64,000 nt of DNA from assembly GCA_945876285.1 (NCBI GenBank), contig CAMCNO010000006.1, forward strand, positions 1-64,000, written 5' to 3'. The notes under the pieces are model-generated. The model made no database searches, was not told the origin of the DNA, and worked only from the letters and a program-made list of their open reading frames with translations. The DNA is from an uncultured Clostridia bacterium (GTDB lineage Bacteria; Bacillota; Clostridia; Oscillospirales; Oscillospiraceae). Both the position numbers and the translations under genes were made by a program. Positions 44,867 through 48,189 of the stretch are shown here, one piece after another. Numbering within the stretch: position 1 is the stretch's first letter; every line of letters starts with the position of its first letter.

Positions 44867-45343
44867 TCAGGGAAGCTGAACCTGGAAGATGTACTGGAAC
44901 ACCACCAGGACACAGGCCGTCGTGATGCCTGCAATCACCAGCATACGGAGCTTTTTTTCATGGTTGAGCGTCAGCATGGAGAGAGCGAGAAACAAAACGG
45001 TGGATACTGCGAAGCCGATGAGATTGAGCATCACGGCGTACAGGATGCAGTAGAGCACGATGATGCCCACCTTGCCGGGAAAGAGAAACGCGAACGTCTC
45101 CTTTGCCTTTTTAACGAGAGGGGGCTTGTCCTCAAAGGGCTGGGGACAGCCCCGCAGCTCCGCGAAGCTGAGAACCGTGGTGACCAGCATGACCAGAGAG
45201 CAGAGCGCGGGCACCGTGCCCTCGCCGGAGAGCTTGGGCGCGGCGAGAAACAGCTTCATGGATGCAATGAAACAGACCAGGGAGAACAGGCCGAGGATGG
45301 CGAGGAAGCCCTTTTCGCCCTTTTGCTGCGTGTGTTTATCCAT
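44867..45343 (-). CDS. tctB: Tripartite tricarboxylate transporter small permease TctB
   Basis: Four-TM small protein between tctA and tctC; start codon ATGGAT lies inside the shared IS-end repeat. Confidence 0.85.
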   Translation of the reverse strand: MDKHTQQKGEKGFLAILGLFSLVCFIASMKLFLAAPKLSGEGTVPALCSLVMLVTTVLSFAELRGCPQPFEDKPPLVKKAKETFAFLFPGKVGIIVLYCILYAVMLNLIGFAVSTVLFLALSMLTLNHEKKLRMLVIAGITTACVLVVFQYIFQVQLP

Positions 45344-45413
45344 AATATCGGCAAGGGTACACCGTCCAGATGCGAAGCATTGGGCGGTGAGGAATTGCCG
45401 TTCCCTCCTTTAA
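45338..45413. repeat. Right end of the IscB element, repeated as a solo copy at 3378-3450
   Basis: Direct alignment by eye; outer pairing GGCAA...TTGCC encloses the hairpin. Confidence 0.8.
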
Positions 45414-45420
45414 TGTAAAA

Positions 45421-46710
45421 TCAAGCAATCAGATAACCAGAAGACCTCTCAAGAAGTTTTAATCTTTTGTAGGAGATGCCGTCTTTAATCATCTGACCAC
45501 TGATAGTCTTGATGGTAAAGATTCCGGTTTTTCTCCGCCCCCAGATAAAGCACTCTTCTCCTTCAAAAAGGACCTTATCAAAGAGACGGAAACCCTTAAC
45601 GTACTTATCTGCCTGATTTGATTTGCGTACGCCTCCCTTGGAGATTGTGGCCTTATGCAACTGCCGATTATGGCGTCTCACAGGCTTTACGGTGTAAACC
45701 CGGTTAGCTCGTTCGATGGCGAACTCCCCGGCATCGTTGAACCCTGCGGGTCCGTGGCAAATCGCCAGAGCATCATTGATGTGGCTCTTCGGCAGGTGCA
45801 TTTTTTCTTCTCTGATGTACTTGGTAATGTAGCCATGGGTCTCCCACACGGGGATATCCAACTCTGAACGAAGTCTAAGGAACAGTTCCTTCCGCATGAT
45901 GCCCATGAATGCAGCGTCTCTCGTAGAGTGACGTTTGCGTTTCTTGAGGTCCTCTGCGGTGATGATGCCCTTATGGAGCTTCTTGTGGCAATCCTCACAG
46001 AGAGTGACCAGATTATCCGGGGCGTTGCCCCCGGTCTTCCGGCTCTCCCGGTGATGCACATGGAGCTTGACGTCGTTCTTCTTGGTAGAGTGGGCGCCGC
46101 AGCACTGACAGGTGTAACCATCTCGCCAAAGGACGTACTGCCGAACATTGTATTGCCCGAGCATTTCACCCTTCTGGTAGTCTTCACCCTGCGGGACAGG
46201 CTTGCCTTCCTCCACTGCCTTGATGAGCTGGAGGTCAAACTCAGCGGTCTCAACGACCACCTTAGTCACGGGAAGCAGATTGCAAATCCGCTTGATTGCT
46301 GTGACGTGCTCCTGAATCTTGACCTCCACAGAGGGTGCGAGCCATCCCTTGTGTTTGCTGTGTACCCTGTTGTTGAACCGAGGCTTGCGATACCTTGTTT
46401 TGCGGTTTCTCCTTGCTCTGCGGAACTCCCGGCGGGTAGAGAGGTTGTCCACCACATCGTTGCGAGGTTTGACCTCCTCAGCGAGCAGTTCCTTCCTCGT
46501 GCCCCCGCTGGTAATTCCGATGGCCTTGCTTCCGGCATCCACACAGAGAAGCACTTCCTGAGTGTAATGCGTGGTCGGCACAACCATCTGAATGGTGAAT
46601 GGTGTCCGATGTTTCACTTTGGCTCTCTTGGCATCCAACAGGTGCCGAGCCTTCGCTTCGGAGCAGGGCATCAGGGGACGCCCATCTTCCGCGATAACAT
46701 AGACCGACAT
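45421..46710 (-). CDS. iscB: IscB RNA-guided nickase/nuclease homologue (PLMP, RuvC split by HNH)
   Basis: PLMP motif GRPLMPCSEAKARHLL; RuvC-I VLLCVDAGSKAIGI; Arg-rich bridge RREFRRARRNRKTRYRKPRF; RuvC-II KVVVETAEFD; HNH CQCCGAHSTKKNDVKLHVHHRESRKTGGNAPDNLVTLCEDCHKKLH; RuvC-III HINDALAICHG; RBS ggaggagg upstream of ATG 46710. Confidence 0.96.
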   Translation of the reverse strand: MSVYVIAEDGRPLMPCSEAKARHLLDAKRAKVKHRTPFTIQMVVPTTHYTQEVLLCVDAGSKAIGITSGGTRKELLAEEVKPRNDVVDNLSTRREFRRARRNRKTRYRKPRFNNRVHSKHKGWLAPSVEVKIQEHVTAIKRICNLLPVTKVVVETAEFDLQLIKAVEEGKPVPQGEDYQKGEMLGQYNVRQYVLWRDGYTCQCCGAHSTKKNDVKLHVHHRESRKTGGNAPDNLVTLCEDCHKKLHKGIITAEDLKKRKRHSTRDAAFMGIMRKELFLRLRSELDIPVWETHGYITKYIREEKMHLPKSHINDALAICHGPAGFNDAGEFAIERANRVYTVKPVRRHNRQLHKATISKGGVRKSNQADKYVKGFRLFDKVLFEGEECFIWGRRKTGIFTIKTISGQMIKDGISYKRLKLLERSSGYLIA

Positions 46711-46724
46711 TCTTGATGTCCTCC

Positions 46725-47050
46725 TCCCTTGAAAAAATTGGTTGGCGGCTAAAGGAAGTCGCCGCACCCATAAAAGGCCGAGCCTCTCATGGGCGTCAGG
46801 TGCCCGTCCCCCATGTTATCCCGTGGTTTCTTTAGATGTCACACTGTCCACAACCGATAAGACTGTTTAATGGCATCCCGCAGAGCAGTGGATTCGGGCG
46901 TACGTCCACTGGTGCCTATCCCGCATTCCTGCGATTCACGGGTAACGTAGTTCTTCCTTTTCGGAAGTCCTCGGGGTAGTCAACTCCAGCTTATGAGATA
47001 TTGCTCTCACAAGTCCCGTCCAAATCTTCAGATTTGGGCGGGGTTATTGA
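46725..47050 (-). ncRNA. Putative HEARO/omegaRNA upstream of iscB
   Basis: About 300 nt noncoding, highly structured (CAGTGGA...TCCACTG; CTTCC-GAAAA-GGAAG; LE hairpin), in the position expected for the HEARO RNA/IscB omegaRNA. Confidence 0.7.
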
Positions 47051-47084
47051 CACGTGTGTTCCTTTCAGGTAAAATCAGTGGGAA

Positions 47085-47113
47085 GAAGCAGGCCGCGCGA
47101 TGCGGCCTGCTTC
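47085..47113. terminator. Inverted repeat downstream of tctC
   Basis: gaagcaggccgc-gcgat-gcggcctgcttc. Confidence 0.5.
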
Positions 47114-47136
47114 CTTATGAGCTGCTATTTTCCAAA

Positions 47137-48189
47137 TTACCGCTCGATACCCACGGAGGCGGGGTCGATGCTGGCGACGCCGGAGTCATAGAGCATATAG
47201 CTGGTGGTGGAGCGGTACTTCTTCAGGTATTCCACCGCCTCGTCGCCGGTCATGTTCATCACGAAGCAGCCCTTGGAGGCCACCAGCTCCTGGAAGTCGG
47301 GAGCTTCGCAGGCCTTGGAGAAGGCGGCGGTCAGGGTGTCGATAATGGCCTGATCCGTGCCCTGCTTCACGAAGACGCCGTAGAAGGGGCCCCAGGGGAG
47401 GACTTCGTTGTACTCGGGGTAAATTTCGGTGATGGCGGGCACGTCATCGAAGCCCTTCAGCCGCTCGTTGTGGAACATAGCCAGGATGCGGATGTCGCCG
47501 GACTGGTAGAAGCTGGCGATGGAGCCCAAGGTGGAGACAGCGAAATCGGCGTTGCCGCCCATGACGGCGATGGCGCACTCGTTCTCACCGTCGAAGGGGA
47601 CCATGTTGGGCTCCGTGCCGCTGATGCTGCGGATGATGGTGGCGGCAGTCTCAGGCAGGCCGCCCGCGCCGGTGGTGGCGGCAACGACCTTGCCGGGATT
47701 GGCCAGCATATCGTTGAACAGGTCCTCCACAGTCTGATACTTGGAGTCCTTGGCGACGAAGATGCCGCCGTAGCTGTTGCTCAGCAGGCAGATGGGATAG
47801 AAGTCGTCGTAGTCCAGTTCGCTGGTGCCCATGACCTTGGCAATCTGGGGATTCTCCGCGCCGAACAGCAGTTCGTAGCCGTCCGCGGCCTGGGCGTTGA
47901 CGTAGGCGGTGGAGACGCCGCCGCCGGAGCCGGCACGATTGGTGAAGACGATGGACTGGCCCAGTTCCTCCTGGGCCACCAGGCCGGCGGCACGGGAGAC
48001 GGTATCACAAATGCCGCCGGCGCTCCACATGATGGAGCCCTGGATGCTCTTGGTGGGATAAGCGGCGGTCTCGGCCGGCTTTGCCGGAGATGCGCCGGAA
48101 TTGGAGGTGGCACCGCCGGAAGAAGCGCCACAGGCTGCCAGCGAGCATACCATAACAGCGGTCAGAAGCATTGCGATGATCTTTTTCAT
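47137..48189 (-). CDS. tctC: Tripartite tricarboxylate transporter substrate-binding lipoprotein TctC
   Basis: Lipobox VCSLAACGASS; YPTKSIQGSIMWSAGGICDTVSRAAGLVAQEELGQSIVFTNRAGSGGGVSTAYVNAQAADGYELL. Confidence 0.93.
   Translation of the reverse strand: MKKIIAMLLTAVMVCSLAACGASSGGATSNSGASPAKPAETAAYPTKSIQGSIMWSAGGICDTVSRAAGLVAQEELGQSIVFTNRAGSGGGVSTAYVNAQAADGYELLFGAENPQIAKVMGTSELDYDDFYPICLLSNSYGGIFVAKDSKYQTVEDLFNDMLANPGKVVAATTGAGGLPETAATIIRSISGTEPNMVPFDGENECAIAVMGGNADFAVSTLGSIASFYQSGDIRILAMFHNERLKGFDDVPAITEIYPEYNEVLPWGPFYGVFVKQGTDQAIIDTLTAAFSKACEAPDFQELVASKGCFVMNMTGDEAVEYLKKYRSTTSYMLYDSGVASIDPASVGIER

Follow-up and report, generated by a model that had tools for sequence, protein, structure and literature searches.

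The 64,000-nt window analysed here, positions 1 to 64,000 of contig CAMCNO010000006.1 (assembly GCA_945876285.1) from an uncultured Clostridia bacterium of the Oscillospiraceae, carries an IscB/omegaRNA (HEARO) transposon in the tctCBA operon. The gene tctC lies upstream of the element, and tctB and tctA lie downstream of it; all three are supported by Pfam. Cas9 probably descends from IscB, and to our knowledge the natural persistence of IscB transposons and the transcription of their guide RNAs have been little described. We describe the element, its insertion at the start codon of tctB, and a module at its right end (RE) that resembles a structured ribosome-binding site.

Identity of the element

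The IscB protein matched NF040563 (guided_IscB) with 321 bits against a cut-off of 175, together with PF14239 (RRXRR) and PF01844 (HNH), and its closest solved structures were IscB/OgeuIscB chains. The PLMP motif, the RuvC-I Asp, the Arg-rich bridge, the RuvC-II Glu, the HNH histidines and the RuvC-III HxxDA motif were unmutated and invariant in 12 relatives, in agreement with an earlier note, made from the letters of the sequence, that had judged iscB to be intact. The HNH match ruled out an identity as IsrB, which has RuvC only. The same note had placed a structured noncoding region at the HEARO/omegaRNA position, where the covariance model RF02033 indeed matched over its full length, above its gathering score of 83 bits and ending at the left end (LE) of the element. 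The LE and RE hairpins with CCGTCCA...TGGGCGG stems that it had pointed out were found on the plus strand. Its location of the element also stood, but both ends were corrected, to 47051 (LE) and 45344 (RE, adjoining the tctB ATG). The element has the subterminal hairpins, the fixed flanking tetranucleotide and, except for a 3-nt length difference, the precise empty site of the IS200/IS605 type. Both iscB and HEARO are single-copy in their own genome, an 85%-complete metagenome-assembled genome. Judged by these matches, the window element is an intact IscB/omegaRNA (HEARO) transposon.

The guide of an IscB system lies outside the element, 5' of HEARO. The guide had been expected just outside LE, where its predicted position indeed falls, the rough range of 47045-47070 being narrowed to about 47052-47068 with its start at plus-strand position 47052. 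The segment was unique at 0 mismatches in its own genome, where only one further site, with 3 mismatches, was found.

Insertion at the tctB start codon

Empty-site comparison confirmed that the element splits tctC from tctBA, as had been proposed. In four relatives of the same genus (G029, G083, G025 and G020), whose tctC is 97-77% identical to that of the window, tctC is followed directly by tctB. In the empty-site alignment, the element sits between the tctB Shine-Dalgarno sequence (SD) GAAAGGAAC and the tctB ATG, so that this SD has been moved 1.7 kb from its ATG. A 3-nt length difference between the element-bearing site and the empty-site relatives remains, and was taken as drift. Both tctB and tctA are still full-length and match their families. 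The tetranucleotide flanking RE is the ATGG at the tctB start, which would represent the target and the target-adjacent motif (TAM); the insertion flank thus predicts that this IscB recognises an ATGG/ATGA TAM.

A minus-strand promoter-like site was found upstream of tctC (48298-48270), and none between tctC and LE. No minus-strand terminator-like site was detected within the element, and RE was rejected as an intrinsic terminator on this ground. A strong minus-strand hairpin (47083-47116) lies between tctC and LE and is kept in three element-free relatives; it is possibly an attenuator or the 3' end of the tctC mRNA.

Start codons at the right end of related elements

Relatives were gathered from genomes, viral contigs, plasmids and phages, and their RE stems were located by anchored search. 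The boundaries were the same family-wide, with GTCAAT at LE and RE directly against ATGR: wherever an ATG lay close to the RE stem (62 elements), the flank was either ATGA (54) or ATGG (8), and the stem-to-ATG distance was 5-11 nt in 59 of 65 elements. When the element was excised, 22 of the 50 insertions with both ends located (44%) had an SD upstream of the flanking ATG and an open reading frame (ORF) of at least 60 codons from it, compared to 5.4% of 4,650 ATGR sites found elsewhere in those flanks (odds ratio 14, p=5e-15, a value uncorrected for survivorship and relatedness). A second empty-site case was provided by yhbY in genome G392, for which relatives 93% and 90% identical are element-free and have an SD immediately ahead of the ATG. 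Independent annotation of plasmids from Cetobacterium, Anoxybacillus, Finegoldia, Shewanella and Pseudoalteromonas also puts the start of the next gene exactly at RE. ATGA and GTGA insertion sites were reportedly noted when HEARO was originally described. The ATGA/ATGG flanks fit the TAMs NTGA and NTGG measured for IsrB, a relative of IscB (PMC9581776).

The right-end module

Throughout the family, iscB is followed by AAAGGAGG or a similar sequence, an outer stem around an inner hairpin and a C-rich internal loop, 5-11 nt, and the host ATG. The window module consists of AAAGGAGG, GAA, the stem CGGCAA...TTGCCG, ATATT and the ATG of tctB. The free energy (dG) of pairing between AAAGGAGG and the anti-SD was -12.1, and the fold prediction gave the outer stem a probability of 0.96. 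An RE SD with a dG of -6 or better was present in 53 of 61 elements (87%) compared to 41% in shuffles, and the outer stem had a predicted probability above 0.5 in 50 of 61. The linear distance of 47-67 nt between SD and AUG is too long for ordinary initiation. With the stem closed, the spacing had a median of 9 nt and was 4-13 nt for 49 of 53 elements; in the window, about 8 nt would then separate AAAGGAGG from the tctB AUG. Both RE helices covaried across 44 relatives, with a score of 0.789, where shuffles gave 0.184+-0.020 and slid controls no more than 0.16. RE thus unites an SD, a covarying stem and a short spacer at a host start codon, as expected of the proposed portable structured ribosome-binding site.

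The SD-like sequence persists in varied iscB frames (GAA AGG AGG, AGA AAG GAG and ATA GGA GGC) and also where it is noncoding, as in the window, so that selection acts on nucleotides and not on a protein motif. AGG made up 50 of 72 arginine codons at the SD site (69%) versus 241 of 1671 in the rest of iscB (14%; p=2e-24). On these frame and codon grounds, an ERR protein motif was rejected as the reason for the conservation of AAAGGAG. In the inner hairpin, coding-strand mismatches were A-C in 43 cases and G-T in 8; read on the opposite strand, this excess of A-C is one of G-T wobbles, as would be expected of a single-stranded DNA hairpin used by TnpA. Mismatches in the outer stem were G-T in 9 cases and A-C in 4 (p=3.6e-4 versus the inner hairpin, on few and partly related cases), which suggests that the outer stem acts as RNA.

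Transposase

No TnpA was detected within the element or the 64-kb window, consistent with the earlier note. The sole Y1 TnpA detected in the genome lies elsewhere on the contig, at contig position 77387-77746, 13 kb past the window and beside tnpB. This co-resident IS605 (locus L069, 3373-5351, with divergent tnpA and tnpB) has in common with the IscB element a CCGTC.../GGCGG hairpin core, a terminal GGGGT(T/A)ATT(G/C)AC and a TATCCAY flank. Local alignments of their ends scored 36 and 31 (shuffle maxima 33 and 26), and among about 50 relatives the window element was the best joint end match to this IS605. The window element was thus likely mobilised in trans by the Y1 TnpA of the co-resident IS605.

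Discussion

Considering these results, we propose a scenario for the element between tctC and tctB. Supplied in trans, probably by the same-contig IS605, a Y1 TnpA would insert the element beside a YCAY/RTGR tetranucleotide, here the ATGG of tctB. By landing between a host SD and its ATG, the guide, the omegaRNA and iscB would come under the host operon promoter. Transcription must begin in the host because the guide sits in host DNA just upstream of LE; the promoter-like site upstream of tctC, together with the lack of one between tctC and LE, is weakly consistent with a host promoter. The position between SD and ATG would ensure transcription in the same direction as the host gene, with the RE ribosome-binding site as the price. 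RE may act as a portable structured ribosome-binding site, in which the SD AAAGGAGG, the outer stem with the TnpA hairpin looped out, a short spacer and the host ATG would together restore translation of tctB, whose own SD was displaced. Translational coupling from iscB could add to this. IscB with its guide would then recut an empty tctC-tctB site having the ATGG TAM, so that the element is retained, a step suggested by IscB/TnpB biology. We consider it probable that the window holds an intact, non-autonomous IscB transposon of the IS200/IS605 type with start-codon landing, a host-promoter guide and a structured RE ribosome-binding site restoring translation. With somewhat less assurance, we favour the wider view of a widespread IscB/HEARO lineage adapted to start codons, which borrows the host promoter and in return gives the host a portable, hairpin-spaced ribosome-binding site, making insertions between SD and ATG nearly harmless.

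Several points weigh against this scenario. A recognisable start codon is missing at about half of the insertions, no SD stands left of LE in several of the plasmid cases, and the RE SD is absent from some relatives. The fold energy of RE in the window is unexceptional (z -1.2), the SD-stem and stem-ATG gaps do not compensate, contrary to expectation, and the TTCCTCC loop could pair with the RE SD. Furthermore, TnpA also needs the RE stem as a hairpin in DNA, and covariation alone cannot separate RNA from DNA; the G-T/A-C wobble test that does separate the two (p=3.6e-4) draws on few, partly related cases.

In an ordinary IscB transposon, the SD-like sequence and the stem of RE would be TnpA recognition features only, and the start-codon bias would come from an ATGA target and selection against intragenic insertion. 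IS200/IS605 ends bear hairpins, the inner hairpin has bottom-strand DNA wobbles and resembles the co-resident IS605 ends, and an ATGR target by itself enriches for start codons. However, AAAGGAGG lies on the hairpin side away from the cleavage site and adjoins the outer stem, the identity of the SD persists in different frames and where it is noncoding, the outer stem has no bottom-strand wobble bias, and the effective spacing matches SD-AUG optima; we therefore regard this explanation as rather unlikely. Another explanation is coupling, in which ribosomes ending iscB in or after RE reinitiate at the AUG, with the SD helping and the stem incidental. In 27 of 60 elements the iscB stop codon falls within the hairpin, and in 7 of 60 it overlaps the AUG (as AUGA, UGAUG or UAAUG), as coupling would have it, but iscB of the window stops ahead of the SD and some 80 nt short of the tctB ATG, and the outer stem covaries strongly. 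Coupling as the explanation is thus doubtful, if less so than TnpA recognition, and a structured ribosome-binding site and coupling could both act.

A polar element, which abolishes tctBA expression, leaves tctCBA broken and carries a decorative SD, would accord with the 1.7-kb displacement of the native tctB SD and with the conserved hairpin between tctC and LE. This is quite improbable, as tctB and tctA are intact in length and family match, the element has no minus-strand terminator-like site and the RE SD is strong. That the element is a decayed remnant without nuclease function might be argued from its single copy and its moderate HEARO score; the full-length ORF with all catalytic residues, the full-length HEARO and the matching ends make this highly improbable.

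The IscB transposon itself is of a known kind. The window element shares with the IscB/HEARO OMEGA systems (NF040563 with RF02033) the protein architecture, an omegaRNA upstream of iscB, a guide from the LE flank and an RTGR-type TAM, but its RE-borne SD and stem and its insertion between SD and start codon had no match in the literature searched, where absence is not proof. With IS605 tnpA-tnpB elements, it shares end hairpins, the lack of target duplication, a YCAY-like flank and, for the IS605 on the same contig, end motifs, whereas it has no tnpA of its own, carries iscB in place of tnpB and would be mobilised in trans. Ribosome-binding sites of the phage T4 gene 25 type have a hairpin between SD and AUG that cuts the effective distance. 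The window module would shorten this distance likewise; however, the T4 site belongs to a fixed gene, whereas the window-type module would be mobile and supplied to arbitrary genes. IStrons, which join a group I intron to IS605/IS607, likewise carry an RNA structure within the IS that reduces damage to the host gene (PMC4227781); they restore the gene by splicing, whereas the window element would restore translation initiation. In IsrB, the PLMP domain is similar to the N-terminal domain of IF-3 and makes contact with an SD sequence of the omegaRNA (PMC9581776). This SD inside the omegaRNA was the sole relevant mention in the literature searched on IscB and Shine-Dalgarno sequences, which held nothing on RE or insertion.

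If the scenario is true, the start-codon landing site accounts for the origin of the guide promoter, the built-in ribosome-binding site accounts for host tolerance of the insertion, and the RE module is a translational counterpart of the self-splicing IStrons. The model would also predict which host genes bear such elements.

Features of the locus and further observations

Table 1. Features of the IscB transposon and its flanking genes, in coordinates of the 64,000-nt window
Feature	Coordinates	Strand	Details	Evidence
Whole IscB transposon, 1,708 bp	45344-47051	minus	LE = 47051, RE = 45344	HEARO 5' end, family-wide boundaries, empty sites
omegaRNA scaffold, HEARO RF02033	46795-47051	minus		full model 1-211, 97.2 bits
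iscB, 429 aa	45421-46710	minus	ATG + 46708-46710, stop 45421-45423	PLMP, RuvC I-III, bridge helix, HNH intact
IscB N-terminus	46530-46708	minus		
Putative omegaRNA guide segment from host DNA	~47052-47068	minus	read from + 47052 upward	5' of HEARO
Displaced tctB SD GAAAGGAAC	+ 47058-47066		inside the putative guide segment	
RE SD-like sequence AAAGGAGG	45404-45411	minus	noncoding, 9 nt past the iscB stop	
RE stem	45349-45400	minus		minimum-free-energy fold, pairing probability, covariation across 44 relatives
RE outer helix CGGCAA/TTGCCG	45395-45400		paired with 45349-45354	
RE inner hairpin CACCG...CGGTG	45385-45389		paired with 45360-45364	
tctB	44867-45343	minus	ATG 45341-45343 adjoins RE of the element	Pfam TctB
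tctC, upstream gene of the split operon	47137-48189	minus		Pfam TctC

In eight related loci (L055, L127, L161, L163, L170, L174, L225 and L228), the iscB frame crosses RE, and its UGA or UAA stop overlaps the host start codon; in the AUGA-overlap cases, the target site provides the iscB stop. On contig C2 of genome G033 (L018 and L020), one iscB copy matches as two neighbouring pieces (385594-386247 and 386253-386816) and seems to be a broken copy next to an intact one. At LE of the window element, a plus-strand promoter-like sequence, TTGACA-17-TAAAAT (11/12; 47047-47075), runs across the junction, pointing outward and antisense to the guide. The reverse complement of the LE terminus GTCAA forms its -35, and other copies of the element may form similar hybrid promoters at LE.
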